From Christensenella timonensis (GTDB lineage: Bacteria; Bacillota; Clostridia; Christensenellales; Christensenellaceae): DNA of 64,000 nt. The stretch lies in the NCBI RefSeq assembly GCF_900087015.1, contig NZ_FLKP01000002.1:1736001-1800000 (forward strand), given 5' to 3'. A program made the position numbers and the translations under genes. Below are positions 3,747 through 21,124 of the stretch, in pieces. The stretch's first letter is position 1. Every line of letters begins with the position of its first letter. The notes beneath the pieces were generated by a model. The model saw only the letters and a list, made by a program, of their open reading frames with translations, did no database searches and was not told where the DNA came from.

Positions 3747-4496
3747 CTATTTTGCAAACTCGATTTCCCTGATGCCCTGCGGATCGATGCGGTTCAATAG
3801 CGACATTTCATCGACGGTAGGCGCGGGTGTGATCCCCACCGCATTTTGGGAAAGCGGGAAAGCTGTATTGTCCTGTACCTGCTCGAAGGTAGCGGTCGGG
3901 TGCACCGTATCGAGTTCCAGCTTACCCTGCCGGAAACGGAACACGCACAGCGGCGTTACGATCTTATCGATATTGCCGCGCGTCGTTATAAAGTCAACAT
4001 TTTTTACGAAAGTCCGCGCATCGTGCTTGGTACGCCAGATGATCGCCCTCTTTGCCGTCGGGATCAGCACAGCGCTTCCCGCCCCGCCCGGCATACGGAC
4101 TTTGGGCCGTTTGTAATCGCCGATCACCGAAGCGTTCATATTCCCCTGCTCATCAAACTGTATCCCGCTCAAAAAAGCAACGTCCAGCCCTCCGCGCATG
4201 GAAAGGTCAAAGATATCCTGCAGCGGGAACATTGCCTGCGCGTCCTCGCACAACTCCCCGCCCGCGCTTGTATAATCCTTAATTTTGATCACTTCCGGGT
4301 CTACGCCGCCCGGAATATTCAAATATACCGCATCGGGCGCATGCATGCTTTTTGCCAGCAGCAAGGCCAGCATCGGCATATGCGATGAAACGCCGTGAAA
4401 AACGGTCTCACGGTTTTGTATCAGCCGTGCCATCGTACATATCATAATGTCCGCAGCCGTGTAATCCCGGGCCGGTTCGCTTATTTTGTCGATCAT
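3747..4496 (-). CDS. CoA-transferase family I, beta subunit
   Basis: The 249 residues resemble the B subunits of family I CoA-transferases such as glutaconate or 3-oxoacid CoA-transferase. They include the GG-rich stretches near HGVSSHMPMLA, IPGGVDPE and RMPGGAGSAV. The enzyme would move CoA between a carboxylic acid and an acyl-CoA in the cytoplasm. Its start overlaps the stop of the alpha subunit by one base (TGATG), so the pair is translationally coupled. The substrate cannot be read from the sequence. As the last gene of the aldolase operon it may handle the acid or acyl-CoA formed from the aldehyde product, which is inference. Confidence 0.8.
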   Translation of the reverse strand: MIDKISEPARDYTAADIMICTMARLIQNRETVFHGVSSHMPMLALLLAKSMHAPDAVYLNIPGGVDPEVIKIKDYTSAGGELCEDAQAMFPLQDIFDLSMRGGLDVAFLSGIQFDEQGNMNASVIGDYKRPKVRMPGGAGSAVLIPTAKRAIIWRTKHDARTFVKNVDFITTRGNIDKIVTPLCVFRFRQGKLELDTVHPTATFEQVQDNTAFPLSQNAVGITPAPTVDEMSLLNRIDPQGIREIEFAK

Positions 4497-5320
4497 CAGT
4501 AAACCTCCCTCGATACGCGGTCTGCGTATTCATACGATTTTAGCCATTCCCCCAGCTCTTCCTGTGTCTTCAGCGCCTTGAACCTTTCGATGTCCCGCCT
4601 ATTGATATCATAAAGCGGATAACACGAACAAGGAGCCGCACCCTGCTCTGTGGAAGCCACGGCGCTGACAAGGAAATGCGGAAGCAATACCCGCTCATTT
4701 TCACGCCTGATCCGCGAAGTCGGTACGATCTTTTCAGCTGTAACGATCACTTTGCGCGACGCCTTTGCCATCAATATATCCTCGAACAGGGGCGGCGTGA
4801 CCACAGCGTTTCCCAACTCGTCCGCTTCTTCCACATGTAAAATACAAACATCCGGTACGATCGCCCGTACCACCGTCACTTCCTGTCCTGAAAAAGGATC
4901 TGTGATTTTCGTAAAATAATCGTTCTGGGTGATCAGGTCGCTTACCATAAGCCCTTTCACCGGCATAAACGGAATACCTGCCTGCGCGGCGCGCAATGCC
5001 GATATGACCGTATAGCACGCGTGCTCATGTGCCTGCACATCGCCGTTTTGAACCGCATAGCGGTAATGGTTTGCCAGCGAATATTTGGATTCATAACTGA
5101 TAAAGCCTGCATCTACGCTTGCGACACATCCCGCAAAACACAACAGGTCGACATCCATCGCCCCCGCGGTCTTTACAAGCTTCAGTCCCTTTTTCTCCTG
5201 GCGCGCGATCTCCCGCACAAGCGCCATAGGCGCGCGGTGCAGGACATTCCCGCCTATCGCAAGTACGCTGCCATCTTCGATCAGGGCAACAGCGTCCTGT
5301 AGTTTCATTACTTTTCCCAC
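4496..5320 (-). CDS. CoA-transferase family I, alpha subunit
   Basis: The 274 residues match family I alpha subunits: a glycine-rich CoA-binding start (SVLAIGGNVLHRAPMALVREI), a central FMPVKGL segment and a long C-terminal helix region. The start is a GTG at 5320 with GAGGG five bases ahead; an in-frame ATG at 5308 is an alternative. It lies 12 bases after the flavoprotein gene and overlaps the beta subunit. The two subunits should form one heteromeric enzyme. No catalytic Glu context allowed a clear substrate call. Confidence 0.8.
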   Translation of the reverse strand: MGKVMKLQDAVALIEDGSVLAIGGNVLHRAPMALVREIARQEKKGLKLVKTAGAMDVDLLCFAGCVASVDAGFISYESKYSLANHYRYAVQNGDVQAHEHACYTVISALRAAQAGIPFMPVKGLMVSDLITQNDYFTKITDPFSGQEVTVVRAIVPDVCILHVEEADELGNAVVTPPLFEDILMAKASRKVIVTAEKIVPTSRIRRENERVLLPHFLVSAVASTEQGAAPCSCYPLYDINRRDIERFKALKTQEELGEWLKSYEYADRVSREVY

Positions 5321-5332
5321 AATGTCCCTCGC

Positions 5333-6664
5333 TTATTTCGCAGCATTGCATGCGATCTGTATCGCATCCCAAACGCCCGCATACGGCGGCGAATAAATCA
5401 AATCCATCATGCCAAGCTGCTTAGTCGTCATACCTGCATTGATCGCCACTACGAATACGTCTGTCCGCAGCGCAGCGCCGTCTTTGCCGGCAAGCTGCGC
5501 CCCTAAAATGCGCATACTGGGTTTTTCATAGATCACCTTGATCGTCAGGGGCTCCATCCCCGGGAAATACGCGGGATGGTTCCTGCCCTCGATCGTCACG
5601 CTGCCGACCGTATAACCCATATCGATCGCCTCGCGTTCCCCAAGCCCCGTGCGGCCAAGCTGCATATCGCATACCTTAAGCGCCGCCGAGCTCGTCATGC
5701 CCACGAATACATCGTGCCCGCCGCAAATATTCGTACCCGCGATCCGTCCGCATTTATTGGCGGCCGTTCCCAGCGGTAAATACACATTCTTTTGTTTCAC
5801 GAGGTCGTAAACCATCGCACAGTCGCCTGCCGAAAAAATATCCGGATTCGAGGTGCGCATCTCACGGTCTACGATCACCGCGCCATTTTTCTCCAACGCT
5901 ACATCCGTCCCCGCGAGAAGCTGCGTATTGGGGCGCACGCCGGCCGAAACCACCACTAAGTCCGCAACATAACTGCGCTGATCGGTGATCACTTCATTGA
6001 CGCTTTCCGTCCCCCCAAATCCCATCACCTTTTCACCGGTGTGGACTTCGATCCCTTTATCCTGCAATTCCTGCATCGCGATCGCAGTGATCTCATCATC
6101 GAACGGCGCGAGGATTTTGTCGGCCGCCTCAATACATACCACATTTTTCCCCAAGGCATGCATCGCTTCAGCAACCTCGACCCCAATATAGCCGCCGCCC
6201 ACGACCACGACATTTTGGATCCCGTACCCGGCCATCACTTCCTTGAGCCGCAGCCCGTCTTCCATCGTCTTGAGGACGTATATCCCTTTTTTCTCAATAC
6301 CGGGGATCGGCGGCTTGATCGCGGATGCTCCCGTACCGATCATCAGTTTGTCATAAATATCCTTGAACGTTTCGCCCGTCTTTAAGTTTTTGACCGTCAC
6401 CACTTTATTCTGTGCATCCACAGCAATGATTTCATGATGTAAAAAGGTACTGATCCCCATTTCCTCAAAAGCCGCCCGCGTACGTGCGATCATTTTGGTA
6501 TGGTCGTCGTTGTACCCGGCGACATAATAAGAAAGGCCGCATGCCCCATACGAAAGATAACCGCCCTTTTCATACACGGTTACCTGCGCGTCCTTTTGTA
6601 TTCGTATTATTTTAGAAGCGGCGGACATCCCTGCCGCCACTCCCCCTGCCACAATAACTTTCAA
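5333..6664 (-). CDS. FAD-dependent CoA-disulfide reductase / NADH oxidase family protein
   Basis: This 443-residue protein has an N-terminal FAD-binding Rossmann motif (VIVAGGVAAGMSAA). A single redox cysteine, Cys42 in SYGACGLSYY, corresponds to the SFANCGLPYY site of CoA-disulfide reductases. A second nucleotide-binding fold (VVVVGGGYIGVEVAEAM) and a C-terminal dimerisation domain follow. Relatives reduce CoA disulfide, or oxidise NADH with oxygen or polysulfide. Within this operon it may recycle CoA thiol or NAD for aldehyde oxidation, or deal with a thiol by-product; that is inference. It is 31 bases downstream of the aldolase gene. Confidence 0.8.
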   Translation of the reverse strand: MKVIVAGGVAAGMSAASKIIRIQKDAQVTVYEKGGYLSYGACGLSYYVAGYNDDHTKMIARTRAAFEEMGISTFLHHEIIAVDAQNKVVTVKNLKTGETFKDIYDKLMIGTGASAIKPPIPGIEKKGIYVLKTMEDGLRLKEVMAGYGIQNVVVVGGGYIGVEVAEAMHALGKNVVCIEAADKILAPFDDEITAIAMQELQDKGIEVHTGEKVMGFGGTESVNEVITDQRSYVADLVVVSAGVRPNTQLLAGTDVALEKNGAVIVDREMRTSNPDIFSAGDCAMVYDLVKQKNVYLPLGTAANKCGRIAGTNICGGHDVFVGMTSSAALKVCDMQLGRTGLGEREAIDMGYTVGSVTIEGRNHPAYFPGMEPLTIKVIYEKPSMRILGAQLAGKDGAALRTDVFVVAINAGMTTKQLGMMDLIYSPPYAGVWDAIQIACNAAK

Positions 6665-6695
6665 ATCCTTGTTCCTCCGGCTGCCAAAACAGCGT

Positions 6696-7571
6696 TTACC
6701 GTAATTTGGCCAGTATTTCGTTCGTTACCTGATCCACCAGGTTGTCGATTTCCGAGCGTGCTGGCTGCGGAGCGGGCTGCCGGCTTGCATTTCCGCCATA
6801 TACCGTCTTGCTCTTGTCCCCGCCGCACTGGCAGCCGCCAATCGGCCCGGACGCCGGAATGACGTCTTTGTCGTTTGTCGTGTTCACTGCGCAGGCCGGA
6901 ATACCGCCGCCATGGATCCCAAGTTTGGCGCGTGTTTCCAAAAGCGGAGCGATCTGCTCACAGCTCAACGGGTTTGCTTTTCCGATGATATTTCCCGTAT
7001 ACATCATAATCGTGGCATAATACTCAACGGATTCCAGCCTGTAAAATGCCTGCATCAGGCTTGTGCCCCATGTCAGGGCGCCATGGTTGGCGAGCAATAC
7101 CGCATTGTAATCCCTGCAGAACGGCGCAATGGAATCCGGCACTTCATTGGTTCCCGGCGTTGCGTATTTCGCGATTGGGATACTTCCCAGCCCCATGATC
7201 GCTTCCGTCAAAATAGGCTGGTCAAGGCCGATACCGGCAATTGCAAACGATGTCGCCACCGGCGGATGCGCGTGTGTCACCGCCATGATTTCCGGATTCT
7301 CCTTATAGGCACGGATGTGCATCTTCACTTCAGACGATGGTTTATACTTGCTATCGTCGGACAACACTTCCCCGTCCAGGGTCATCTTCACGATCATATC
7401 CTGATCCATAAACCCTTTGGATACGCCCGTCGGCGTCGTCAAAATCACATCCGGAGCAATTTTACAACTGATATTTCCGTCGTTTGCCGCGACGAAACCT
7501 TTTTGGTACATTCTCCGTCCAATTTCAAGGATCTGTTCTTTTGCTTCAAAAGTCGAAGGAAAATTCGCCAT
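6696..7571 (-). CDS. Class II aldolase (FucA/AraD family) with C-terminal encapsulation-peptide-like tail
   Basis: Residues 1-215 form a FucA-type zinc aldolase. Glu81, His100, His102 and His163 keep exactly the spacing of the E. coli FucA catalytic and zinc residues (73, 92, 94, 155). The protein is 291 residues, about 75 longer than FucA. The extra part has HGGGIPAC, a CQCGG patch and a Pro/Gln-rich linker. It ends in a short amphipathic helix (SEIDNLVDQVTNEILAKL, 273-290) of the kind that targets enzymes into microcompartments. With MtnK and MtnA encoded nearby, the likely substrate is 5-methylthioribulose-1-phosphate or 5-deoxyribulose-1-phosphate, giving DHAP plus an aldehyde. Fuculose-1-phosphate remains possible. 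Confidence 0.85.
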   Translation of the reverse strand: MANFPSTFEAKEQILEIGRRMYQKGFVAANDGNISCKIAPDVILTTPTGVSKGFMDQDMIVKMTLDGEVLSDDSKYKPSSEVKMHIRAYKENPEIMAVTHAHPPVATSFAIAGIGLDQPILTEAIMGLGSIPIAKYATPGTNEVPDSIAPFCRDYNAVLLANHGALTWGTSLMQAFYRLESVEYYATIMMYTGNIIGKANPLSCEQIAPLLETRAKLGIHGGGIPACAVNTTNDKDVIPASGPIGGCQCGGDKSKTVYGGNASRQPAPQPARSEIDNLVDQVTNEILAKLR

Positions 7572-7614
7572 GTTCTTTACCTCGTTTGCAAAAAATATTA
7601 AAAATGTGTGCCTG

Positions 7615-7638
7615 GTTATGTTGTTTTGCCGTCATAAC
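7615..7638. promoter_or_regulatory. Candidate DeoR-type operator in the aldolase leader
   Basis: The inverted repeat GTTATG (7615-7620) and CATAAC (7633-7638) lies 30-50 bases downstream of the predicted aldolase start point. It contains the start of an ATAACAT heptamer (7634-7640) that recurs in the deoR and BMC leaders. Confidence 0.4.
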
Positions 7639-7673
7639 ATAAACGCTGTAAAAATTCTTTATTTATTACTATA

Positions 7674-7702
7674 ATAGTACATTTATTTGACTGCACTGTC
7701 AA
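7674..7702 (-). promoter_or_regulatory. Sigma-A promoter of the aldolase operon
   Basis: On the minus strand a perfect -35 TTGACA (7702-7697), a 17-base spacer and a -10 TACTAT (7679-7674) precede the aldolase start at 7571. The divergent gap from 7572 to 7898 otherwise holds only the deoR promoter, the two operator-like repeats and AT-rich DNA. Confidence 0.65.
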
Positions 7703-7804
7703 TAAAAAATACCGTATTTTTCTGTGTTTGTGTGATATTTTTTTCTGTTTATTTGGTTTTAGTTGATTTTTCATCTAGAAAACAAAATATTTTCCGCTTT
7801 TCCC

Positions 7805-7832
7805 TTTACAACTGTACCAAATTTCGTATAAT
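7805..7832 (+). promoter_or_regulatory. Sigma-A promoter of the deoR-type gene
   Basis: A -35 TTTACA (7805-7810) and a perfect -10 TATAAT (7827-7832) are 16 bases apart and face the regulator gene at 7899. Confidence 0.7.
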
Positions 7833-7858
7833 TATTGTATAGAATCCCTTTCCTTATG

Positions 7859-7876
7859 TATAACATGGATGTCATA
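7859..7876. promoter_or_regulatory. Candidate DeoR-type operator in the regulator leader
   Basis: The imperfect inverted repeat TATAACA (7859-7865) and TGTCATA (7870-7876) lies about 20-37 bases after the predicted transcription start. It matches the layout of the element in the aldolase leader, which suggests autoregulation. Confidence 0.4.
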
Positions 7877-7898
7877 ATATAAAACAGGAGTTATGCCA

Positions 7899-8663
7899 AT
7901 GCTTGCATTAACCAGAAAGAACCAGATCCGGGAACTGATTCTGGAGAAAAAGAACGTTACCGTATCAGAGCTTGCCAAACAGTTTTCCGTCACGGAAGAA
8001 ACGATACGCCGGGACTTGAAATCCCTTGAAGAGTCCGGGGTGCTGATCCGTACATACGGCGGTGCATTTATCCAGGAGGGGGTTGTCAACGAAATCAAGA
8101 TGGCCCTTCGCGAAAATATCCTGGTGCCCAACAAACAGAAGATCGCGAAAAAGTGTGCTGAATTTATCCACAACGGCGACACGATCACCCTAGATGCATC
8201 GACGACTGCTTTCCACATTTGCAACGAGATCAAGCATATGCGCCTGACGGTTTTGACGGATTCGCTGAAAATCGTGAACTACCTTGCAGAATACGATAAT
8301 ATCAACCTGATCGCGACCGGCGGCACGCTGCAGCACAACTACTATAGTTTTATCGGCAAAATGGCCCGCCAGACCATACGGGAATACTATGTTGATAAGG
8401 TATTCGTTTCCTGCCGTTCCCTCGATATGACGCACGGGATTACCGAAGCCGGTGAGGATATCGCCGCCATCCGCAAACTTTTGATTGAGCGTGCAAACAA
8501 AGTCTTTTTGATTGCGGATCATTCCAAATTCAACAAGGTGTCTTTCGTGAGTATTTGTGATTTTGACAAGATCGATGCCATCGTCGTGGACGAGCCTCTC
8601 TCTGAAGACTGGCACGAGTTTTTGGAAGAGCATGGGATCAATCTTTATGAATGTGAGGCATAG
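7899..8663 (+). CDS. DeoR/GlpR-family transcriptional regulator
   Basis: The N-terminal winged helix has the family signature TVSELAKQFSVTEETIRRDL, followed by the LIRTYGGA wing. The C-terminal DeoR sensor domain (about residues 75-235) binds a phosphosugar in relatives. I chose the ATG at 7899 (AGGAG 8 bases ahead) over one at 7893 (2 bases). It sits between and divergent from the aldolase operon, and its stop faces mtnA convergently. The natural effector is therefore probably a phosphorylated intermediate of the MtnK/MtnA/aldolase route; this is inference from position. Confidence 0.85.
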   Translation: MLALTRKNQIRELILEKKNVTVSELAKQFSVTEETIRRDLKSLEESGVLIRTYGGAFIQEGVVNEIKMALRENILVPNKQKIAKKCAEFIHNGDTITLDASTTAFHICNEIKHMRLTVLTDSLKIVNYLAEYDNINLIATGGTLQHNYYSFIGKMARQTIREYYVDKVFVSCRSLDMTHGITEAGEDIAAIRKLLIERANKVFLIADHSKFNKVSFVSICDFDKIDAIVVDEPLSEDWHEFLEEHGINLYECEA

Positions 8664-8682
8664 GTTTTATTTCTGTTATATT

Positions 8683-8712
8683 CCGCCTGCATGTTGTGCC
8701 GGCGGTTTTTTA
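8683..8712 (+). terminator. Terminator of the DeoR-type gene
   Basis: CCGCC (8683-8687) pairs with GGCGG (8701-8705), with an inner GCA/TGC, and a TTTTTTATT tract follows. It starts 20 bases after the stop codon. Confidence 0.75.
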
Positions 8713-8814
8713 TTACCGCAGCAATATAATAAATACGGCATCGCCCTGCCGGCCATACCGTCTTCATCCTGCTGTGCTTCACTTTATGCTTTCGGAGGAT
8801 TCAAAAACAAAATC

Positions 8815-9900
8815 TTATTTCTTAGCAGCAGTTTCTTTTTTCGCGAATATTTCCTTTAAAGATTCTTCAAACGGCGCATACGCAATGCCGTATTCCGTGA
8901 TGATCCCCGTGATATTCTGTGCGTCCGTCACGTCGAACGCCGGATTGAACACCTTTACGCCTTCGGGAGCCATTCTCTTTTCATACCACATTTCCGTTAC
9001 TTCTTCCGCCGACCGAAGTTCGATGTGGATGTCGTCGCCGCTTGCACAATTCATATCGATCGTCGAGGTCGGCGCACATACATAAAACGGGATGCCGTAA
9101 TATTTCGCTGCCAGCGCAACGTAGGAAGTACCGATCTTGTTTGCCGTATCCCCATTTTTCGCTACGCGGTCGCATCCTACGAATACCGCATCCACCCAGC
9201 CTTTTTTCATGACGGACGGAGCCATATTGTCGCAGATCAGCGTTGTATCGATGCCCGACTCTTGCAGCTCGTAAGAGGTCAGGCGCGCTCCCTGCAGCAG
9301 CGGGCGTGTTTCGTCACAGAACACACGGAAGTTATATCCTTTCTCGTGCCCCAAATACATTGGCGCCGTTGCCGTGCCATATTTGGAGGTCGCAAGCTGT
9401 CCTGCATTGCAATGCGTGAGCAATCCCATCCCCGGCTTCAAAAGCGACAAGCCATATTCGCCGATCGTCTTGCACACCCATGTATCCTCTTCCTTGATTT
9501 TGACCGCTTCTTTGTGCAAAATCTCTTTGATTTCCGCAATGGATTTATCCTTATTTGCACGTACCACATCATCCATGCGCTTTAGTGCCCAGGAAAGGTT
9601 CACCGCTGTCGGGCGGGCGGAATCCAAATAATCCTTCGCCTTTACAAACTGTTTATAAAAATCATCAAAGTTATCCGCGTCGATCTCTTTGGCAGCCAGG
9701 TAAATCGCGATCCCCGCTGCAACGCCGATCGCCGGGGCTCCCCTCACCTGCAACAGGTAAATCGCATCCCAGATACTCTTCTGGTCTTTCAGGTGCAGGA
9801 TTTCCGTATTGTACGGAAGCTGCGTCTGGTCAATGATAACCAGCGCGCTGTTTTCGTCATCAAGCGCAACGGTATCATACTCCATAATGCTTTGTTTCAT
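8815..9900 (-). CDS. mtnA: S-methyl-5-thioribose-1-phosphate isomerase
   Basis: The 361 residues carry the family hallmarks: [11 protein letters not shown], the catalytic Cys164 in [10 protein letters not shown], and Asp244 in [18 protein letters not shown]. Length and motifs separate it from eIF2B-like homologues. It converts methylthioribose-1-phosphate (or 5-deoxyribose-1-phosphate) into the ribulose-1-phosphate form. The ATG at 9900 has a GAGGT site about 9 bases ahead. It directly follows mtnK in the importer operon. The short Lys/Ala-rich tail after residue 345 is not conserved as far as I recall and may be a simple extension. Confidence 0.93.
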
Positions 9901-9919
9901 TCGCTTGTACCTCGCAAAA

Positions 9920-11146
9920 TTAGATTTCCACAGCGACCGACTTTAACTTATCGATGTAAGCCTTGCCTGTCTTATACTGCGTCCTGTTCATGATAAAATC
10001 CTTTGCACACAAAATCACGATGCGCTCCGCACGCGTGCGCTTCGCTTCGTCGGGAATGGTCGTCAGGTCCTTGACCTGCGCCATGCCGACCGTACGGCGG
10101 TTCATTTCAAGCCCCGCGACGCCAGCCGTGTCCGCAAGCACCGTATCCAGGAAATACTCCCTGTATCCGGGTGTCCTTGCCATTGGCTCAGTCACATTTG
10201 CGTCGAAAGCCCTGATGAACTTCTCCTTGAACAGGTCTACGATATTGGTGATCGTATCTTCGATCCACCCAAGATAATCCGCTTTTTCCTGCGCGTCGCC
10301 GATCGTCGCATCGCCATTTGCCCATGCAAAAATCATGTTCGCAATCACATTACCGATATCATATCCCATCGGCCCGTAAAAAGCAAACTCCGGATCCATC
10401 ACACGCGTAGACCCCTGTTTAATAAATACGGAACCCGTGTGCAGGTCGCCATGTATCAGGGACTGTGCATTGTTCATAAAATCATATTTGAGCTTTGCCA
10501 CTTCCAGTTGAAGCGCTTTATCGTCATAAAGCTCTTTCTTCACGAAATCCGCATTGGGCGGGAACACAAGGTTCCTTCCAAGGTTGTCGTCATATGGCTC
10601 TGTATAAACAAGCGGTTCGGAGATGTCCGCACAAAGCTGCGGATTGATATACCGCTTGACCATCTCTTTTTTCTCTTTGGAATCCATGACCCTGTCCGTG
10701 GTCAGCAGCAGGCTGTTGACCAAAAAAGTCGTGATATCCTCTGCAAACTGCGGAAACTGCTCGTGCTTTAACAGCGCGCTGCGCATGACCTGGTGGTCGG
10801 AAAGGTCTTCCATCGCAAAACAGTTCATCACCGGATCGTACATATAAATGTGCGGAACCAATCCCGGACAAAGCTTCCCTTCGAGGGTCAGGATTTCCAC
10901 CTCGATCCTGTTACGGTCTGTGGACAATTTGAAATCGGAAGAAATCCGCGCTTCCACACCCGCCTGCTTAACGATCACAGATTTTCCCGTCGCTTCTTCC
11001 CATATTTTGAACACGTAGTTCAGGTTGCCGTCGCCGATCTCTTTTGCTTGCAATACGGCATCCCCGGAAAACATGTCGAGTTTTTCTTTTGCATATTCGA
11101 TTACATCGTCCGTACCCATCAAAAAGTACTCATTGAAACCAGCCAT
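9920..11146 (-). CDS. mtnK: 5-methylthioribose kinase
   Basis: The 408-residue product shows the MtnK signatures: the ATP-site strand SVIVKQAG, the catalytic HGDLHTGS loop and the metal-binding DPEFAFYGP segment, then the conserved Arg-rich C-terminal region. It phosphorylates C1 of 5-methylthioribose; homologues also accept 5-deoxyribose. I use the ATG at 11146 because AGGAGGT lies 8 bases ahead; earlier in-frame starts lack a site. There is no methionine-cycle completion enzyme (MtnW/X/D) nearby. With the aldolase this suggests the DHAP shunt rather than the universal methionine salvage route. Confidence 0.93.
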
Positions 11147-11168
11147 GTCCCTTACCTCCTTCATCGCT

Positions 11169-11211
11169 GATATCATGCGGCGAAGCATAAAAGCTCCGCC
11201 GTATGATATTT
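11169..11211. repeat. Strong hairpin between permease and mtnK genes
   Basis: Arms of 13 bases (ATATCATGCGGCG at 11170-11182 and its near-complement at 11198-11210) pair with one G-T mismatch. There is no T tract in the direction of the operon, so it is more likely an RNA-processing or stability element than a terminator. Confidence 0.6.
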
Positions 11212-11230
11212 TTTCCGTCTATCCAGATAC

Positions 11231-12232
11231 CTAGTTTTTCTTACGGGCGTAGGTAAGCGCCAAGGCTGCAGCCAGTACGCCGCCCTTCACAATATCCATC
11301 GCATAATATGGCACGGACATCATAATAAACCCATTATCGAGCAGGCCGACCAGCGCGGCGCCTGCAAGTGTACCGAATGGATTTGCCTTTCCCGCTCCAG
11401 CGACCGAGAACCCGATATACGCCGCCGCAACGGAAGGCATCAGGTACGCGTCGCCTGCCTTGACCTGCGAACTGCCGATGTAAGCCGCCAGCATGATCCC
11501 GCCGAGGGCGGCAAAGATTGCGGAGAACATATAGGCAAGCACCCTGTACTTGCTGACAGAAATGCCGGACAGCCGCGCCGCTTCCGGATTCCCGCCAACC
11601 GCGTACATATAGCGGCCGTGCTTCGTGTAAGTCAGGAAGAAAAACGCGAATACAACGACGATCAGCATGATCGGGATCAGGAATTCCGCCTTGCCAAGCG
11701 CCTTGAACTCCGCCGGGATCAGGCCGGGCGCCTGCGTACCGTCGGGGCGCATCATACGTTCCGTAATCGCTCCTCCGCGCGTATAGGTAAGCGCCACCCC
11801 CTGGAAGATGAACATCGTCGCCAAACTGGCGATCATATCCATGATCTTGAGCTTTACGATCAACAGGCAGTTGACTGCCGCAACGGACAAACATACGACT
11901 ACCGTTGCTAAAATGGACAATCCCATACTCTGTACGCCGTACCATACGAACATCGTCGTAATGAAGGCATCCGCAAAGTTGGCATTTGCGCCGATGGAAA
12001 GATCCATGCCGTTAACGGTCAGCGAGAATGTAAGGCCTACGGCAATGACTGTCGTAATCGAAATATTCCGCAGTATTGTGATCATGTTGTCGCCGGTCAA
12101 AAACATCCCCGGCATGGCAAACGTAAAGAAAATGAACAATACGGCAATAATCAACAACATTCCCCAGTTTGTTATAAAATCAAGCGGAGAACCTTTACTT
12201 TTCTTTTGTAATGCAGCCTCTTTCGGATTCAT
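11231..12232 (-). CDS. Sugar ABC transporter permease (RbsC type)
   Basis: The 333-residue protein is very hydrophobic with roughly nine to ten membrane helices and carries the family segment NGMDLSIGAN near helix 3. It belongs to the ribose/galactose-type BPD_transp_2 permeases. The start lies one base after the ATPase stop (TGA-G-ATG) with GGGAGG before it. With the ATPase and lipoprotein it forms a complete importer. The downstream MtnK and MtnA point to methylthioribose, 5-deoxyribose or a similar pentose as cargo. Confidence 0.88.
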   Translation of the reverse strand: MNPKEAALQKKSKGSPLDFITNWGMLLIIAVLFIFFTFAMPGMFLTGDNMITILRNISITTVIAVGLTFSLTVNGMDLSIGANANFADAFITTMFVWYGVQSMGLSILATVVVCLSVAAVNCLLIVKLKIMDMIASLATMFIFQGVALTYTRGGAITERMMRPDGTQAPGLIPAEFKALGKAEFLIPIMLIVVVFAFFFLTYTKHGRYMYAVGGNPEAARLSGISVSKYRVLAYMFSAIFAALGGIMLAAYIGSSQVKAGDAYLMPSVAAAYIGFSVAGAGKANPFGTLAGAALVGLLDNGFIMMSVPYYAMDIVKGGVLAAALALTYARKKN

Positions 12233-12233
12233 C

Positions 12234-13748
12234 TCAATTTCCTCCCGTGGAATAGTATAGAAGCTCTTTTTCGCCGATCTCTTCGACGTCCAGCTCGGCT
12301 ACGATCTTCCCGTCGTACATAACGTATGTCCGGTCTGCGATCGCCAAAATTTCACTGAACTCACAGGAAGCGTAAATGACGCCTTTCCCATTCGCAGCAA
12401 GACGCTCGATCAGCTCAAAGATATCGCGTTTCGCCCCAACGTCTACGCCTTTTGTCGGTTCGTCGAAAATATAGATTTCAGCATCGGAATTCAACCATTT
12501 CGCAACGGCCACCTTTTGTTGGTTCCCGCCCGATAATAATGCGACGATTTGGTTTTCACTGGGTGTTTTGATCCCCAAGTCCTTGATCATCTGCCTGGCG
12601 TCTTCCTTTTCTTTGGCTTTATTGACCACGGAAAGCGCACCCGTATATTTTTTCATCGCCGCAACCGTGATATTGCTGTACACCGGGTCTTTGATCAAAA
12701 CGCCTTCTTTCCTACGTTCTTCGGGCACGAGCGCCAAACCGCTCCTGACAGCCGCATGAGGGTCTTTCACAGTGATTCTTTTGCCATTCAGTTCGATGGT
12801 TCCGCTGCTGTGCTTCAAGGCTCCGAACAGTGTTTTGCACAGCTCCGTCTTACCTGCGCCAACCAGCCCCGATACCCCGACGATCTCTCCCCGGCGTACC
12901 GTCATACAAATGTCTTTGATTTTTTCTTCTTTCTCGGTAAGGTTTTCCACCTGAAGCAGCACATCCCCGATTTCAACCTTTTGTTTCGGAAAGTTTTCAT
13001 CAAATTTGCGTCCAAGCATATACTCCACGATCTGGTTTACCGAAAGGTCTTCTGTCAGCGGAAGGCTGATCACGTTCTGTCCATCCTTCATGATCGTGAT
13101 CTCCTCACAGATCTCATAAAGTTCGTTTAACCTGTGCGAGATAAATACGACGCCGACATTTTCGTTCTGGATCAGTTCCCGTACGACACGAAACAGCTCC
13201 TCCGTTTCCGTGTTGGAAAGCGGAGCTGTCGGCTCGTCCAATATCAAAAACCGGCAATTTTCCGCTACACAACGCGCGATCAGAACCATCTGCTTTTGCG
13301 CAAGGGACAGCTCCGAAACCACTGTATTGACATTGATATCAACATTGAAGCGTTTCAATACCTCTTTCGCCTGCCTGCGGATTTCATTCCATTTTACAAG
13401 CTGCTTTTTTCCCATTTCATTAACCATAATATTAAACATAACGTTTTCCGCTACGGATAAATAGGGGATCAAAGCAGTGTCTACCTCCTGGTATACGATC
13501 GCGATTTTCTGTTCGACCGCATCTTTCGGAGACCTGATCTCGATCGGCTGCCCATTTGCATAGATCTGGCCCGTATAGTGAGTGTTCGCACCTGCCAGAA
13601 CCTTCATAAGGGTCGATTTTCCGGCGCCGTTCGCACCGACCAACGCATACGATTTGCCCGTTTCCATTGTGAAATCCACATTAGACAGCGCTTTCACGCC
13701 CGGGAATTCGATCGAAATGTCTTTCATTTCTATTTTTACGTTCTCCAT
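12234..13748 (-). CDS. Sugar ABC transporter ATP-binding protein, duplicated domains (RbsA type)
   Basis: Two ABC domains are fused in 504 residues. The first has Walker A GANGAGKST, signature LSLAQKQM and Walker B FLILDEPT. The second has GLVGAGKTE, LSGGNQQKVA and IYIFDEPTKG. This is the RbsA/MglA arrangement, powering import through the permease encoded next. I prefer the ATG at 13748 because the AGGTG site lies 8 bases away; an ATG at 13754 is only 2 bases from it. A 216-base gap with inverted repeats separates it from the binding-protein gene. Confidence 0.9.
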   Translation of the reverse strand: MENVKIEMKDISIEFPGVKALSNVDFTMETGKSYALVGANGAGKSTLMKVLAGANTHYTGQIYANGQPIEIRSPKDAVEQKIAIVYQEVDTALIPYLSVAENVMFNIMVNEMGKKQLVKWNEIRRQAKEVLKRFNVDINVNTVVSELSLAQKQMVLIARCVAENCRFLILDEPTAPLSNTETEELFRVVRELIQNENVGVVFISHRLNELYEICEEITIMKDGQNVISLPLTEDLSVNQIVEYMLGRKFDENFPKQKVEIGDVLLQVENLTEKEEKIKDICMTVRRGEIVGVSGLVGAGKTELCKTLFGALKHSSGTIELNGKRITVKDPHAAVRSGLALVPEERRKEGVLIKDPVYSNITVAAMKKYTGALSVVNKAKEKEDARQMIKDLGIKTPSENQIVALLSGGNQQKVAVAKWLNSDAEIYIFDEPTKGVDVGAKRDIFELIERLAANGKGVIYASCEFSEILAIADRTYVMYDGKIVAELDVEEIGEKELLYYSTGGN

Positions 13749-13810
13749 CTGCATATCACCTGCCTGTCGTATGTGTAATTATCATAACGATAAATAATTT
13801 AAATTTGGTT

Positions 13811-13920
13811 GACTCTCCATCTAATCAAACGAATCAATAGTAGTACAAAATTGAAACAGAATTGCTTACATTAGATTATACCGGCCGCCCCGAATCAGAT
13901 GGAGTGTCTCTTTTTCGGGG
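13811..13920. repeat. Nested inverted repeats between binding-protein and ATPase genes
   Basis: One hairpin pairs CCCCGAA (13888-13894) with TTCGGGG (13914-13920). A second, long-range pairing joins 13811-13826 with 13893-13908 (13 of 16 positions complementary). The second arm of the long pairing lies in the loop of the first hairpin. The gap from 13749 to 13970 has no gene. Such elements often lower expression of the ATPase relative to the binding protein. Confidence 0.55.
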
Positions 13921-13970
13921 CAAGCCAGTATATTTCATTTAGTGATAGTGATTATAAAGAGTAAGGGCCC

Positions 13971-15164
13971 TTATTTCCCGTTCTGGGCACGGAGCGCGTC
14001 CATCCACGGTGTATTGAGGTCAGAGATGCTCTCAAGTGTTCCCCACCCGTCAACAACTGTGTTCAGGTTTTCCATCGTGATGTCTTTGTTGAGCTGCGAT
14101 GTCTTAACGAGCTGTGCATCCAGCGTGTAGTAATCCGGCGTCTCTTCGCCAGCCAGTTTCAGGGCGATCAGCCGCATATTGGCGATACCGATCAGCTTCG
14201 GGTCAACCGCAGCGGTGGAGATCCATACATCCGGGTTTTCGAGCATCAGGTTGATGTCGTCGTTGGAGATATCGATGGTGAACATCGGGATATCCGTACG
14301 TCCGGCGTCGTTCAGTGCCTGCAGGACGCCCTTTGCGAGCTCATCATAGCAGCCCCAGATCGCGTCTACGGAGCCTTCCGGATACTTCGGCAGGATCGCG
14401 GCCGTCTTTGTTGTCATGTCGCCACGTGCATTTGCGCTGTCGGAAGGTGCGATCGTTTCCAACGTCTCGATCAGGCCTTCGCTTTCCATCTGCGTATAAA
14501 CTTCGTTACGTCTGTCAAGCGGCGGTACGCCAGGGCCCATGAACGTCTTCAGAATCTTCATCGGCTTCTTGCCAACTGTTTCGATCATATCTGTCAGGGA
14601 CAGCGTCGCCAGCTTCTGGTCATCCTGCGATGTGGACGTTACGCCTGCGAGCAGTTCATTGTCGGCATTACCGTCTTTGAAAGGCATCGTATCGAATGTA
14701 GAGATCACCATGCCTTTATCGGCGGCGGGTTTCAGCATGTCATAGGAATAGGACAGCTGTCCATGGGAAACGATGATACCATCGTAATCCTTCTGGATGC
14801 ACTGTGCGACCGTCTGCTGCGTTTTCGCATCGTCGCCGTCCGTTACAAAGGTGTCAACCGTGAATCCAAAGGCTTCGCCTTCAGATACACAGCCAGCTAA
14901 AAACTGCTGTGTGTGGTCGCCATTTGCAAGATTGCGTACTACGGCGATTTTTTTACCGCCCTGTACGCCTTCCGGGATCGCGGCATCGCCGCCGGCAGCC
15001 GCCGACTCGGACGGAGCCTCGGCAGATTCGGACGGAGCCGCTGCCGATTCAGATGCAGCCGCGCTTTCACTTGGGCCTTCCGAAGCTGCCGGAGCAGCTG
15101 TACAGCCTGCGAATACTGCTACGAGCATTGCAACAGCGAGTACCAATACAACTAACTTTTTCAT
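13971..15164 (-). CDS. Sugar ABC transporter substrate-binding lipoprotein
   Basis: The precursor has a lipoprotein signal peptide ending in the lipobox VFAGC with Cys21 as the lipidation site. An Ala/Ser/Glu/Pro-rich spacer follows to about residue 60. The rest is a periplasmic-binding-protein fold of the ribose/LacI type, beginning KKIAVVRNLANGDHTQQFLAG. GGAGG lies 7 bases before the ATG at 15164. It is the second gene of the operon, 77 bases after the BMC shell gene. The ligand is not readable from sequence. Confidence 0.9.
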   Translation of the reverse strand: MKKLVVLVLAVAMLVAVFAGCTAAPAASEGPSESAAASESAAAPSESAEAPSESAAAGGDAAIPEGVQGGKKIAVVRNLANGDHTQQFLAGCVSEGEAFGFTVDTFVTDGDDAKTQQTVAQCIQKDYDGIIVSHGQLSYSYDMLKPAADKGMVISTFDTMPFKDGNADNELLAGVTSTSQDDQKLATLSLTDMIETVGKKPMKILKTFMGPGVPPLDRRNEVYTQMESEGLIETLETIAPSDSANARGDMTTKTAAILPKYPEGSVDAIWGCYDELAKGVLQALNDAGRTDIPMFTIDISNDDINLMLENPDVWISTAAVDPKLIGIANMRLIALKLAGEETPDYYTLDAQLVKTSQLNKDITMENLNTVVDGWGTLESISDLNTPWMDALRAQNGK

Positions 15165-15241
15165 AATTTTCCTCCTTATTGAATAGCCTCAATTCATTTA
15201 TGTGTCACTCCAACACATATTAATGAAATTTATGAAACATT

Positions 15242-15517
15242 TTAAACCGTGGGCAGGATGCTTTCCACATCGCCATGCGGGCTGGGGATCACATGTACGC
15301 CGTACAGGTCTCCCACCCTTTTTGCCGCGGCAGCGCCTGCATCCACCGCAGCCTTAACGGCGCCTACGTCGCCCCGCACCATGACAGTTACCAGCCCTGA
15401 GCCGATCTGCTGTTTGCCGATCAGGCGTACATTTGCCGCTTTGACCATGGCATCAGCTGCTTCGATGGCCCCAACCAGTCCTTTTGTTTCCACCATTCCC
15501 AAAGCTTCCTTTTCCAT
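15242..15517 (-). CDS. Bacterial microcompartment shell protein, single BMC domain (BMC-H)
   Basis: The 91 residues are one BMC domain: [20 protein letters not shown] at the start, then the pore-lining IGSG and [20 protein letters not shown], as in PduA and EutM. Such proteins form flat hexamers that tile the shell of a protein organelle. I use the ATG at 15517 with GGGG six bases ahead. It is the first gene of the importer-mtnK-mtnA operon. No other shell gene (BMC-P vertex or BMC-T) is visible in the window, so a full shell would need genes elsewhere. Confidence 0.93.
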
Positions 15518-15540
15518 TTGCAACCCCTTTCACGAAAAAC

Positions 15541-15581
15541 CATGTTATTCTAGCACTAAAGAAAAGCTTTTTTGTATAATA
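15541..15581 (-). promoter_or_regulatory. Possible promoter and ATAACAT element of the BMC operon
   Basis: On the minus strand a -10 like TATTAT (15581-15576) has only a poor -35 (TTTATA) 18 bases upstream. About 25 bases downstream lies ATAACAT (15547-15541), the heptamer also found in both leaders of the 7.6-7.9 kb region. The 251-base gap to aroF also holds the aroF promoter and one GC hairpin (15608-15628). Confidence 0.35.
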
Positions 15582-15607
15582 TTCCTCCAGTACTATATTT
15601 ATAAAGG

Positions 15608-15638
15608 GGCCTCCGCTTCTGCCGGAGGTTCTCTTTTT
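15608..15638. repeat. GC-rich hairpin in the BMC-aroF divergent gap
   Basis: CCTCCG and CGGAGG arms with a 9-base loop are followed on the plus strand by a T-rich tract. No plus-strand gene precedes it, so it may stop antisense transcripts or act as a structural element upstream of the BMC promoter. Confidence 0.45.
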
Positions 15639-15680
15639 TTGTCAGATTTATGTAAATTTTCAGTAATATTAATTTTCTTT

Positions 15681-15709
15681 TTGCGTATCTTATAAAATTA
15701 CTATATAAT
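15681..15709 (+). promoter_or_regulatory. Sigma-A promoter of aroF
   Basis: TTGCGT (15681-15686) and a perfect TATAAT (15704-15709) are separated by 17 bases, 60 bases before the aroF start. Confidence 0.65.
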
Positions 15710-15768
15710 GGTTAAAAAACCGGCTGCAAAGCAATTTATCGCCGGTAGATGCAAGAGGTAACGACAAA

Positions 15769-16782
15769 GTGATTATTATAGTCAAGCAGAAGGCGCCTGA
15801 AAATAAGATCAATGAGCTGATCCATAATCTTGAGCAGCAGAATTTCAAGATCCACCTGAGCAAAGGCGACAATACCACGATCATCGGCCTTGTCGGCGAT
15901 ACCTCCCTTGTGGATATCGACAACATCAAAGCCAAGGATATCGTAGAAGACGTCAGGCGGGTTTCAGAGCCATATAAGAAAGCAAACCGTAAATTCCATA
16001 CGGATGATACTGTGATCGACGCAGGCGGACACCTGATCGGCAGCGGTCACTTTGCGGTCATAGCCGGGCCTTGTTCCGTAGAAAGCGAAGCACAGATGCT
16101 GGAGATCACGCGCGACATTTGTAAAAGCGGGGCAAATTTCCTGCGCGGCGGCGCATATAAGCCGCGCACCTCTCCCTATGCCTTCCAAGGGCTTGAACAG
16201 GACGGGATCCGTTTGCTGTCCGCATGTAAAAAGCAGTTCGGCATCCCGATCGTAACAGAGATCATGGGCGTTTCCGACATCCCTTACTTCGAGGATGTGG
16301 ACGTGATCCAGGTGGGCGCGCGCAACATGCAGAATTTTCGTTTGCTCAAAGAACTCGGAAAGCTCAAGCAGCCTATTCTCCTGAAGCGCGGACTTGCCAA
16401 TACCATCGAAGAGTTTTTGATGAGCGCGGAATACATTATGGCGGGCGGGAATGAAAATGTCATTTTGTGTGAACGCGGCATCCGCACCTTTGAAACATTT
16501 ACGCGCAATACCTTTGACTTAAGCGCGATCCCTGTCCTGAAGAACAAATCACATCTACCTGTCATTGCCGACCCCAGCCATGCTGCCGGTCTCAATTGGC
16601 TGGTGGAGCCCCTTTCCAAAGCTGCGATTGCTGCCGGGGCGGACGGTTTGATGATCGAGGTGCACAACGATCCGGAACATGCCCTTTCCGACGGTAAGCA
16701 ATCCCTCACCCCCGCAGCTTTCGACAACCTGATGAAAACATTAAAGGCATATATGGAGCTTGAAGGAAAGCATCTCGATTAA
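15769..16782 (+). CDS. aroF: 3-deoxy-7-phosphoheptulonate (DAHP) synthase, type I-beta
   Basis: This 337-residue enzyme condenses PEP and erythrose-4-phosphate, the first step of the shikimate pathway. Residues 1-70 form a ferredoxin-like regulatory domain, as in Thermotoga DAHP synthase, where aromatic amino acids bind. The barrel follows, with AGPCSVES, GARNMQN, LKRG and DPSHAAG motifs that bind substrates and metal. The start is a GTG at 15769 with GAGG 10 bases ahead. It is transcribed alone and ends in a clear terminator. Confidence 0.92.
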   Translation: MIIIVKQKAPENKINELIHNLEQQNFKIHLSKGDNTTIIGLVGDTSLVDIDNIKAKDIVEDVRRVSEPYKKANRKFHTDDTVIDAGGHLIGSGHFAVIAGPCSVESEAQMLEITRDICKSGANFLRGGAYKPRTSPYAFQGLEQDGIRLLSACKKQFGIPIVTEIMGVSDIPYFEDVDVIQVGARNMQNFRLLKELGKLKQPILLKRGLANTIEEFLMSAEYIMAGGNENVILCERGIRTFETFTRNTFDLSAIPVLKNKSHLPVIADPSHAAGLNWLVEPLSKAAIAAGADGLMIEVHNDPEHALSDGKQSLTPAAFDNLMKTLKAYMELEGKHLD

Positions 16783-18958: not shown

Positions 18959-20221
18959 TCAAAAATACATCTCTTCCATATACTTTTCCATAAAATATGG
19001 GTTATGCCCCAATTCAATGTGCCGCGCCCTTCTGCAAAAACCCTGCATCTCATTGCGGTAACAGTCGTTCAAAAGCGTCATGATTGCCCCGGAGCCTGCG
19101 GCATTGCCCAAACCGATCACTTCTGTGAACCCTGATGGGAGAAGCCCGATCTCTCTGGCGCTTTGCTGATCCATATAATTCCCAAACCCTCCTGCCAAAA
19201 AGACCTTTTTTACGTCAGTACATGTAAGCTTCGCACTTTTCAACAAAGCCCTTATTCCTGCAACAATTGCCGCTTTCGCCATTTGCACTTCCCTGATATC
19301 CTGTTGCGTGAGAAAGACCTTATCTGTTATTTGCACGGCCTCCTGCCCCTCAAACATACGCTGCCATTCTTTATGTACCTCTGTGATGCGTCCAGTCTCG
19401 TCAATAACGGCATTGCGCCTTAATACCGCGATCGCATCCAGCAGGCCCGAGCCGCAAATCCCGTTTGCGCCTGTATTGCCGACCACCTCTGTTTTCAACT
19501 GCCCATCTTCCTCATATACGCGGTTCACAGCTCCTTTGACGCCTGCCATACCGCATGTGATATGCGCTCCCTCAAACGCCGGCCCGGCGGCTGTAGAGGT
19601 GCTGTACACGAAATCCTTGTTTCCCAGCACAAGCTCGCCATTGGTGCCAATATCCATGAGCAGGCAGATGTCCTGCCCTTCCAGGAAGCCCGCCGGCAAA
19701 AGTGCGCAGGAAATATCCCCTCCCACAAAGGCAGACATACACGGCGGCAGGTAGCACATGGCTCCTTTTGCAGCATGCAAACCGAGCCCGGCCATTGGTA
19801 CGGTATTCCCAAAGACAGACAGGGGTTTGAAAGGAAGGACGCCCATAGATTCCGGCGACAAGCCCGACAACAAATGCAGCATCGTCGTATTGCCGGTGAC
19901 AACGCCGTAGATAATATCATCTTCCGGTATCTCCGCAAGGCCGCACATCGTTCGGATCATATCATTGAGCTCCGATATGACTGCCTGCCGAAGCGTCTGC
20001 AAACCTTTTTTGTGCTCGCCGCAATACTGGATACGTGAGATCACATCGGCGCCATAACGGCTTTGGGCGTTCATACGGCTCTCTACGGCAAGGCGCTTGT
20101 TAGCGCCCATATCGTAAAGATAAGCCGCGATCGTCGTAGTACCGATATCCACTGCGACGCCATATCCTGTCTTATCGCTCACTACTCTGGGCAAAATGCC
20201 CTGTGTCATGATTCCCGACAT
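18959..20221 (-). CDS. ASKHA-type corrinoid activation protein (RamA/RACo family) lacking the N-terminal ferredoxin domain
   Basis: The protein has the ASKHA fold: phosphate-1 loop VAVDIGTTTIAAYLYD, MDIGTNGELVLGN, an STAAGPAFEGAHI segment and FLAGGFGNYMD. The C-terminus HIELGHNPYFMEKYMEEM is typical of DUF4445 proteins. Members reduce inactive Co(II) corrinoid proteins to Co(I) using ATP. Most carry an N-terminal 2Fe-2S domain and linker of some 150-200 residues. Here the 420 residues start almost at the ASKHA domain, so electrons must come from another protein. It lies 62 bases after the corrinoid-protein gene, with a terminator-like hairpin between. Confidence 0.85.
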   Translation of the reverse strand: MSGIMTQGILPRVVSDKTGYGVAVDIGTTTIAAYLYDMGANKRLAVESRMNAQSRYGADVISRIQYCGEHKKGLQTLRQAVISELNDMIRTMCGLAEIPEDDIIYGVVTGNTTMLHLLSGLSPESMGVLPFKPLSVFGNTVPMAGLGLHAAKGAMCYLPPCMSAFVGGDISCALLPAGFLEGQDICLLMDIGTNGELVLGNKDFVYSTSTAAGPAFEGAHITCGMAGVKGAVNRVYEEDGQLKTEVVGNTGANGICGSGLLDAIAVLRRNAVIDETGRITEVHKEWQRMFEGQEAVQITDKVFLTQQDIREVQMAKAAIVAGIRALLKSAKLTCTDVKKVFLAGGFGNYMDQQSAREIGLLPSGFTEVIGLGNAAGSGAIMTLLNDCYRNEMQGFCRRARHIELGHNPYFMEKYMEEMYF

Positions 20222-20235
20222 TTGTTTCTCCTGAA

Positions 20236-20266
20236 AAGAAAAGCCGCCCCGCTTAAGGGCAGCTTT
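20236..20266 (-). terminator. Intra-operon terminator or attenuator
   Basis: On the minus strand AAAGCTGCCC pairs imperfectly with GGGGCGGCTTT and a TTCTTTT tract follows. It separates the corrinoid gene from the ASKHA gene and probably keeps activator levels below corrinoid-protein levels. Confidence 0.65.
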
Positions 20267-20283
20267 CCAAATTTCGACTCATT

Positions 20284-20916: not shown

Positions 20917-21124
20917 AACGTTGCGTTGTTCCTCCTGCGTATTTTTTATCATGTATCATGCATGGATTATTATAACATACCGAACCGCTTTTGTCTTTTT
21001 CATTATTCATTTAATATTCATAAATCATTCACAGAGGGTTAAAATTCTCTCTGTAAAATCAAAGCATAAACAAAAAGCGGGAAAAAACAATCGCCTCCGG
21101 CGTTTAAATATATAATGATACTTC

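Follow-up and report, generated by a model that had tools for sequence, protein, structure and literature searches.

The sugars 5-deoxyribose and 5-methylthioribose are remnants of radical S-adenosylmethionine and polyamine chemistry. The described dihydroxyacetone phosphate (DHAP) shunts (drdK-drdI-drdA and mtnK-mtnA-ald2) consist of a kinase, an isomerase and a class II aldolase, some with an importer, and, as far as the available portions of the two reports go, come without bacterial microcompartment (BMC) genes, the word 'microcompartment' being absent from PMC6079011 and 'compartment' from PMC12632272. Genes for the same three kinds of enzyme and an importer, with the same predicted chemistry, lie together with a BMC shell gene in a 64,000-nucleotide stretch of Christensenella timonensis (hereafter the window; contig NZ_FLKP01000002.1, here C2, positions 1,736,001 to 1,800,000), which is part of a 2.65 Mb genome (G000) with a completeness of 97.7%. 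The locus around the class II aldolase of this window, Ald2, and its relationship to BMCs are the subject of this analysis.

Several described types of BMC offer points of comparison. PVM-like loci carry a class II aldolase together with a DeoR regulator, both also present in the window, and fucose/rhamnose or 1,2-propanediol chemistry is predicted for them in the available portions of the published accounts (Axen 2014, PMC4207490; Sutter 2021, PMC8217296; Asija 2021, PMC8156839), the last of which applies the fucose/rhamnose view to gut species. The terms 'methylthioribose' and 'mtnA' do not occur in the text of Sutter 2021, nor 'methylthioribose' and 'IF-2B' in that of Axen 2014, nor 'methylthio', 'isomerase' and 'kinase' in that of Asija 2021. 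The ACI type, as far as it is described in the available part of its source, has a class II aldolase with a C-terminal encapsulation peptide (EP) and an aldehyde dehydrogenase (AldDH) at a separate locus, as here, but differs in belonging to Acidobacteria and in having a hydroxyacid dehydrogenase, with no mention there of mtnK or mtnA (PMC8217296). According to the same partial source, SPU BMCs likewise rely on a sugar-phosphate aldolase that makes acetaldehyde for an AldDH in the shell (PMC8217296), but they use a DeoC-type aldolase, an RpiB-type isomerase and 2-deoxyribose phosphate. In Acetobacterium woodii, a nearby methylthioribose kinase has no connection with the function of the BMC, according to the available text (PMC7593272). 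A search of the open literature, with subscription papers, preprints and catalogue supplements outside its scope, found no paper linking BMCs to the 5-deoxyribose/methylthioribose DHAP shunt. The first-pass annotation of the window, made from its letters, had stated that it knew of no described BMC built on MtnK and MtnA. Term searches found no mention of these genes in the texts of the PVM-like papers, but the statement has to be tempered, since contiguous relatives of the locus (such as L052) look like the published PVM-like class.

We consider it likely that the window holds one part of a split microcompartment, a metabolosome with the DHAP shunt as its signature pathway, in which a shell locus is separated from an import-plus-aldolase satellite and whose packaged shunt would serve an imported 5-deoxypentose. 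At the level of genes, the case for such a DHAP-shunt metabolosome is strong. In the predicted pathway, the sugar ABC importer would bring in the 5-deoxypentose, cytosolic MtnK would phosphorylate it at O1, and MtnA would isomerise the phosphorylated sugar to a 5-deoxy-ketopentose 1-phosphate. Ald2, held in the shell through its C-terminal helix, would then cleave this compound into DHAP, which would exit to glycolysis, and an aldehyde, either acetaldehyde from 5-deoxyribose, which we favour, or methylthioacetaldehyde from 5-methylthioribose. Lumenal AldDH1 and AldDH2 would use NAD+ to convert the aldehyde to an acyl-CoA, PduL would convert the acyl-CoA to an acyl-phosphate and return CoA, an RnfC/PduS-like protein would probably handle the lumenal NADH, and acetate kinase outside the shell would yield ATP. 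Such aldol cleavages have equilibrium constants of about 1e-4, according to the available text of PMC6079011, and the predicted logic of packing Ald2 together with AldDH is that it would pull this thermodynamically poor cleavage forward. The DeoR protein would probably control the aldolase, the shell/pduL operon and AldDH2, with CtfAB and CoADR as accessory, probably cytosolic proteins.

The first-pass annotation had noted that the window contains no AldDH or vertex protein, making the set incomplete, and had suggested looking for BMC-P, BMC-T and CoA-acylating AldDH genes elsewhere. The observation is correct for the window, in which whole-genome searches with PF00936 and PF03319 place one and no gene, respectively, and among whose open reading frames (ORFs) no AldDH was seen by eye. 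It does not extend to the genome, where all of these parts are present at C2:1539-1548 kb, about 200 kb away. The PF00936 and PF03319 matches there cluster at C2:1540.8-1547.9 kb, and the locus encodes PduL, a protein of 228 aa that weakly matches a eut family, two BMC-P, AldDH1, a flavoprotein of the RnfC/PduS-like type, BMC-T, two BMC-H, BMC-P, AldDH2 and another BMC-P; shell genes in the whole genome amount to three BMC-H, one BMC-T and four BMC-P. AldDH1 and AldDH2 both belong to the CoA-acylating EutE/PduP group and match NF011927 (631 and 627 bits, cut-off 403); among solved structures, AldDH1 comes closest to 4c3s (443 bits). PduL matches NF011652 (256 bits, cut-off 209), and the genome has one acetate kinase match. 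The window BMC-H, first gene of the transporter-mtnK-mtnA operon, is 88% identical to BMC-H1 and 91% identical to BMC-H2 of the main locus, which makes a single shared shell plausible. No other EP-tagged aldehyde-producing enzyme was seen by eye in the main locus.

The shell could instead belong to an SPU-type organelle for 2-deoxyribose 5-phosphate, built on an aldolase of the DeoC kind. The sister species G005 may have such an organelle, its two BMC loci (L146 and L147) encoding DeoC-family proteins with N-termini that appear EP-like by eye. We set this reading aside as highly improbable for C. timonensis, where DeoC matches are absent from both the main locus and the window, and the four DeoC matches of the genome (three of them over the cut-off) lie elsewhere and lack EP-like ends by eye. 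The DeoC-family genes of L146 and L147 adjoin sugar-kinase-like genes, and these loci look SPU-like.

To place the window among its relatives, an alignment of eight Ald2 proteins was compared with the genome_contigs collection (84,980 species), giving at least 594 pattern matches and at least 522 confirmed relatives. The analysis used the best 80 of these, a set selected by likeness to the Christensenella-family Ald2. Flanks of up to 10 kb per side were analysed with small custom BMC profiles and with blastp against the proteins of this genome. MtnA is encoded in the flank of 66 of the 80 relatives and MtnK in 52, with AldDH in 40, PduL in 42, CtfA in 32 and an assigned DeoR homologue in 29; BMC-H is present in 38 flanks, and BMC-H or BMC-P in 42. 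MtnA and BMC genes occur together in 36 of the 80 flanks, including one spirochaete and one synergistete locus, which is more than expected by chance, and MtnK, MtnA, AldDH, PduL and BMC-H are all present in 30 (20 Clostridia and 10 Bacilli). When the count is limited to the 51 loci whose flanks extend 8 kb or more in each direction, BMC genes are present in 31 and MtnA in 47. The survey of relatives advocated in the first-pass annotation hence revealed the contiguous full set, and the two outcomes that it had named as fatal to its proposal, a genome without other BMC genes and a neighbourhood not conserved in relatives, were both looked at and neither came true.

The contiguous loci follow recurrent arrangements. 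In L052, L053, L056, L064 and L085 the order is binding protein, ATPase, permease, MtnK, MtnA, divergent DeoR and Ald2, followed by AldDH, four BMC-H-type ORFs, PduL, BMC-P, CoADR, CtfA and CtfB. A second arrangement (L062, L063, L070, L080) consists of Ald2, CoADR, CtfA, CtfB, MtnK, MtnA, PduL, AldDH (AldDH1-like), RnfC-like and BMC-H/T genes and joins the genes of the window type to those of the main-locus type, so that the window resembles one half, the satellite, of a locus kept whole in relatives. A third (L081, L086, L095, L108, L111, L113) is without the CoADR-CtfAB unit, although in L095 a CoADR match (33%) lies roughly 9 kb off. As these relatives hold pathway, shell and enzyme genes in one block, the toxic aldehyde is probably both made and used inside the shell. 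Further families recur in the set: an SBP_bac_1 solute-binding-type protein in 17 of the 80 loci (in L052 at 14667-15791, between BMC-P and CoADR, with no signal peptide by eye), an iron-containing alcohol dehydrogenase in 10 (e.g. L052:18739-19911), the DhaK-type kinase Dak1 in 9 (e.g. L081:16719-17705) and RbsD/FucU in 6 (e.g. L078:19361-19783).

The published view of PVM-like loci would make this a fucose/rhamnose organelle, in which Ald2 would release lactaldehyde from fuculose or rhamnulose 1-phosphate, with mtnK and mtnA as bystanders (PMC8156839 and PMC4207490, in their available parts). A FucA-like aldolase and a rhamnulokinase-like kinase (L010:471-2586), encoded some 5 kb upstream of the main locus, would fit such a role. 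The recurrence of MtnA and MtnK in the aldolase neighbourhoods speaks against it, as do the scores of both proteins, which exceed curated cut-offs (Table 1). The FucA-like protein near the main locus is 210 residues long with no added tail, and the positions of FucA Y113, F131, F206 and Y209, which we take to line its lactaldehyde pocket, are occupied by L, P, R and L in Ald2. On the strength of the MtnK/MtnA scores and the differing pocket residues we set this reading aside as very improbable. The fucA-rhaB block, accompanied by what look by eye like PfkB and two-component genes, adjoins the main BMC locus here and MtnA-DeoR-Ald2-CoADR in the sister species G005, the two proteins being 98% and 85% identical; this synteny agrees with the view of the window as a satellite of the main locus.

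Ald2 itself comprises 291 residues, 76 more than E. coli FucA. Its metal ligands E81, H100, H102 and H163 align with those of FucA and are invariant in 46 sequences. Against solved structures, DrdA (6btd) scores 85 bits and ranks behind 6vop and 6voq, and no NCBIfam cut-off was reached among the matches listed (the best 25 of 30). An AlphaFold2 model based on the 46 sequences (mean predicted local distance difference test score, pLDDT, of 88) shows a well-folded domain, a linker (246-268) mostly below pLDDT 50 (246-251 and 255-268), and a terminal helix (272-290; blocks 271-280 and 281-290 at pLDDT 85 and 93), a predicted layout resembling that of encapsulation peptides.

With a tail defined as 35 residues or more, 60 of the 80 relatives have tailed aldolases. 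All 42 loci with BMC genes in their flanks belong to this group, whereas none of the 20 tail-less loci has flanking BMC genes (Fisher p 1e-8, kinship ignored). At the level of whole genomes, BMC genes accompany 55/58 tailed and 9/20 tail-less loci (p 5e-6), a tally in which 38 loci counted as positive from the flank, 40 were decided by genome search and 2 fell outside the search. A profile was built from 38 of the 42 AldDH N-termini; among these 38, L050 and L078 clearly start wrongly, and L072, L080 and L084 too early. It matched, at 3 bits or more, 48/60 tails, 17/41 PduL N-termini and 15/1200 shuffled tails, but 0/20 tail-less C-termini and 0/248 C-termini of MtnA, MtnK, CoADR, CtfA, CtfB and DeoR. 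In the other direction, a profile of 41 tails from outside Christensenella gave 5.6 bits with the window Ald2 tail and 12.9 bits with the N-terminus of E. coli EutE, with 0/400 shuffles as good in both instances. Six of seven other Christensenella-family tails reached at least 3 bits with this profile (G006, at 0.1, fails), AldDH2, AldDH1 and PduL scored 3.6, 1.7 and 1.9 bits, and the C-termini of MtnA, MtnK, CoADR, CtfA and CtfB and the N-termini of MtnA and MtnK were negative. For 26 of the 60 tails, fewer than 5% of shuffles had as good a hydrophobic moment. These profiles suggest that Ald2 and AldDH would be cargo, and probably PduL too, with MtnK, MtnA and CoADR predicted to be cytosolic and CtfAB probably so.

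A number of results count against the packaged-shunt reading. With the AldDH profile, the window Ald2 tail scores -0.7 bits, a value equalled by 37/400 shuffles. Nor does its hydrophobic moment stand out, with 27% of shuffles as good, or 36% for the modelled helix. The C-terminus of the window CtfA scores 2.1 bits with the same profile (2/400 shuffles), and the absence of a peptide on CtfA is therefore not a clean negative. Flanking BMC genes are missing from 18 of the 60 tailed loci, and tailed aldolases occur in three genomes with no PF00936 match (L049, L090 and L093). In the genomes of L092, L101, L104 and L107, also with tailed aldolases, the single BMC cluster taken per genome lacks the pathway genes (another BMC cluster in the genome of L101 lay outside that comparison). 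Across the catalytic-domain tree there are nine or more changes of the tail, but just five independent pairs are supported, and after correction for kinship the association of tail and locus BMC genes is not significant (on average 3.5 pairs in the same direction and 0 in the opposite, of 5), nor is the tree-based association with genome BMC genes (on average 2.2 pairs same, 0.7 opposite); these tree tests lacked power. BMC clusters of another kind, set among genes that look hydrolase-like and permease-like by eye, were observed at L141-L144 in genomes that also carry a tailed Ald2.

Comparison of upstream regions yielded the element AAACMACATAAMMNNNCAMA, which has three exact matches in the 2.65 Mb genome, upstream of PduL (C2:1539297), AldDH2 (C2:1546132) and Ald2 (C2:1743607), and one further site with one mismatch (C2:215085). 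A narrower motif, for which only the Ald2 regions in G000 and G005 were used, would still reach the AldDH2 site with one mismatch, as read from the match list. In G005, the region upstream of MtnA contains a held-out pair of overlapping sites that form the 10-bp direct repeat AAACAACATA. Two one-mismatch sites are present in G001 and none in G002-G004. We infer that the DeoR protein binds this motif upstream of Ald2, PduL and AldDH2. Weighing against a common regulon, the motif derives partly from sites that it then finds, a reversed control pattern gives one near-match here and 0-2 in five sister genomes, and no copy was seen in front of the BMC-H-mtnK-mtnA operon or in the vicinity of either BMC locus of G005. 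The central proposal of the first-pass annotation, that a DHAP-shunt route is served by a microcompartment, is supported by the BMC core found in the genome, the contiguous loci, the encapsulation-peptide-like tail of Ald2 and this shared upstream motif.

The same genes could encode an ordinary cytosolic DHAP shunt for 5-deoxyribose disposal, in a lineage that lost the organelle or never had it, with BMC-H and the Ald2 tail as relics and the main BMC locus serving another aldehyde. Published shunts carry no mention of microcompartments in the available text (PMC6079011, PMC10986504, PMC12632272, PMC8102628), and the tailed aldolases in genomes with no PF00936 match point the same way. So does a converse sample of 393 Clostridia genomes, in which an MtnK-family match was found in 42 and exceeded the cut-off in 22. 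BMC genes flank none of the 21 other over-cut-off MtnK loci, in fetched stretches of up to 20 kb, some ending at contig ends. In nine of these 21 loci the aldolase is short, lacks the tail and shares 29-34% identity with Ald2; five have a tailed relative (64-67% identical), one is cut before any aldolase and six show none. The result argues that linkage to BMCs goes with some members of the tailed Ald2 subfamily rather than with mtnK. Moreover, MtnK occurs in only one of the 18 genomes of the family, that of C. timonensis, which also weighs against a packaged shunt; other members carry MtnA-Ald2, in G002-G004 with a BMC-P gene adjoining. Against a purely cytosolic shunt stand the motif that ties Ald2 to the shell operon, the position of BMC-H at the head of the mtnK-mtnA operon, the 30 contiguous full-set loci, and a main locus and four DeoC-type proteins among which inspection by eye found no alternative EP-bearing aldehyde producer. 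We regard it as improbable.

Two groups of loci deserve mention here. In five of the sampled Clostridia genomes, all of one genus (L164-L168), MtnK, MtnA and a tailed Ald2 occur with no BMC genes within 20 kb, and the neighbours in L164 and L165 resemble cobalamin and haem synthesis genes by eye. In G002-G004, the BMC-P-like protein encoded ahead of MtnA-Ald2 (L044:11510-12091, L045:11350-12039, L046:7648-8223) has a long C-terminal extension with the shared end RVGYRSE-KK; G003 has this extended gene and a tailed aldolase and zero PF00936 matches in the genome.

The packaged shunt would dispose of its aldehyde through AldDH and PduL, which explain the exit better than the CoA-transferase invoked in the first-pass annotation. 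CtfAB resemble the 5mzw and 5n03 proteins, their best solved relatives, which we take to be the decarboxylase AibAB, and share with these and with GctAB the CoA-transferase fold. In a distant alignment, however, the column of E. coli AtoA Glu46, presumably the catalytic residue of family I CoA-transferase beta subunits, is a gap in 33/33 CtfB sequences, and because this segment is missing we did not accept CtfAB as a classical CoA-transferase and rejected an exit through it; the pair has the fold but is probably not a classical enzyme of this kind. CoADR keeps its active-site Cys in 37 of 39 homologues.

These accessory genes bear on a variant in which the organelle is the same but its substrate is 5-methylthioribose, so that the lumen would make methylthioacetyl-CoA, with CtfAB and CoADR handling the acyl-CoA and thiol/disulfide by-products. 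The recurrence of CtfAB and CoADR in the loci, the missing transferase Glu, which leaves room for another acyl-CoA reaction, and the suitability of a CoA-disulfide reductase for thiol chemistry all lend it some weight. Arrangements without CtfAB exist, however, namely the third arrangement described above, and AldDHs of the EutE/PduP kind suit acetaldehyde at least equally, so that we hold this variant to be rather unlikely.

Among the sugars tested, DrdK of Bacillus thuringiensis was active on 5-deoxyribose and methylthioribose only, and DrdA yields DHAP and acetaldehyde, in the available account (PMC6079011). MtnN and MTAP were not found in the C. timonensis genome by a PF01048 search, at the completeness given above, the sole match being a purine nucleoside phosphorylase. 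Methionine salvage from the cell's own 5'-methylthioadenosine was set aside on this basis, and the importer together with the lack of an MtnN/MTAP match argues that the free sugar would come from outside. The imported substrate is probably 5-deoxyribose, which appears to give the best fit to AldDH and PduL.

Extending the packaged shunt beyond C. timonensis, we lean towards the view that the PVM-like loci of Firmicutes and the sister arrangement with RnfC form a distinct organelle class, which would package the DHAP shunt for imported 5-deoxyribose or 5-methylthioribose rather than act on fucose/rhamnose and which, in some species, would be split into a shell locus and an import-aldolase satellite, with a single DeoR regulon and a single encapsulation tail connecting the two. 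This provides a concrete substrate prediction for a BMC class so far assigned by analogy, in named genera with cultured strains (Lacrimispora, Clostridium, Paenibacillus, Evansella and Gracilibacillus). If correct, it would tie BMCs to by-products of S-adenosylmethionine chemistry, reveal a new origin for the aldehyde in the lumen, and point to 5-deoxypentoses as genuine nutrients.

The gene content reported in the first-pass annotation (importer, MtnK, MtnA, aldolase, flavoprotein, BMC-H and a DeoR regulator between two operons) was confirmed throughout, ORF reading and, for all but the ABC ATPase, family searches identifying the listed genes as intact ORFs (Table 1). By layout, two minus-strand operons flank the single regulator, one running Ald2, CoADR, CtfA, CtfB and the other BMC-H, sugar-binding protein, ABC ATPase, permease, MtnK, MtnA. 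MtnK is the single match of its family in the whole genome, and homologues of the ABC ATPase recur in relatives, placed between binding protein and permease.

Table 1. Features of the Ald2 locus, in positions of the 64,000-nucleotide window.
Feature	Position	Strand	Basis or remarks
CtfB, beta subunit, CoA-transferase fold (5mzw/GctB-like)	3747..4496	-	PF01144; catalytic Glu segment absent
CtfA, alpha subunit, CoA-transferase fold	4496..5320	-	PF01144; best solved relative 5mzw_A
CoADR, CoA-disulfide reductase / NADH oxidase type flavoprotein	5333..6664	-	NF007123, 536 bits, cut-off 458
Ald2, class II aldolase	6696..7571	-	PF00596; catalytic domain, linker, C-terminal helix (encapsulation-peptide-like)
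Operator-like motif AAACAACATAACCAGGCACA, upstream of Ald2	7607..7626	-	G000:C2:1743607-1743626
DeoR-family regulator	7893..8663	+	PF00455, PF08220
MtnA, 5-methylthioribose-1-phosphate isomerase family	8815..9900	-	TIGR00512, 415 bits, cut-off 279
MtnK, 5-methylthioribose kinase family	9920..11188	-	TIGR01767, 407 bits, cut-off 275
Sugar ABC transporter permease	11231..12232	-	PF02653
Sugar ABC transporter ATPase	12234..13754	-	identified from its ORF
Sugar-binding protein of importer	13971..15164	-	PF13407
BMC-H shell protein	15242..15523	-	PF00936, E 4e-29; likely ATG at 15517

A plasmid search returned four records, none covering 80% of the query. Outside the two operons, genes for corrinoid-activation-type and corrinoid-binding proteins adjoin each other at 18959-20952 of the window, with matches below curated cut-offs. 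DAHP-synthase-like genes, named by eye, adjoin both the satellite BMC-H (window 15769-16782) and the main BMC locus (L010:16297-17352), and are 59% identical to each other.

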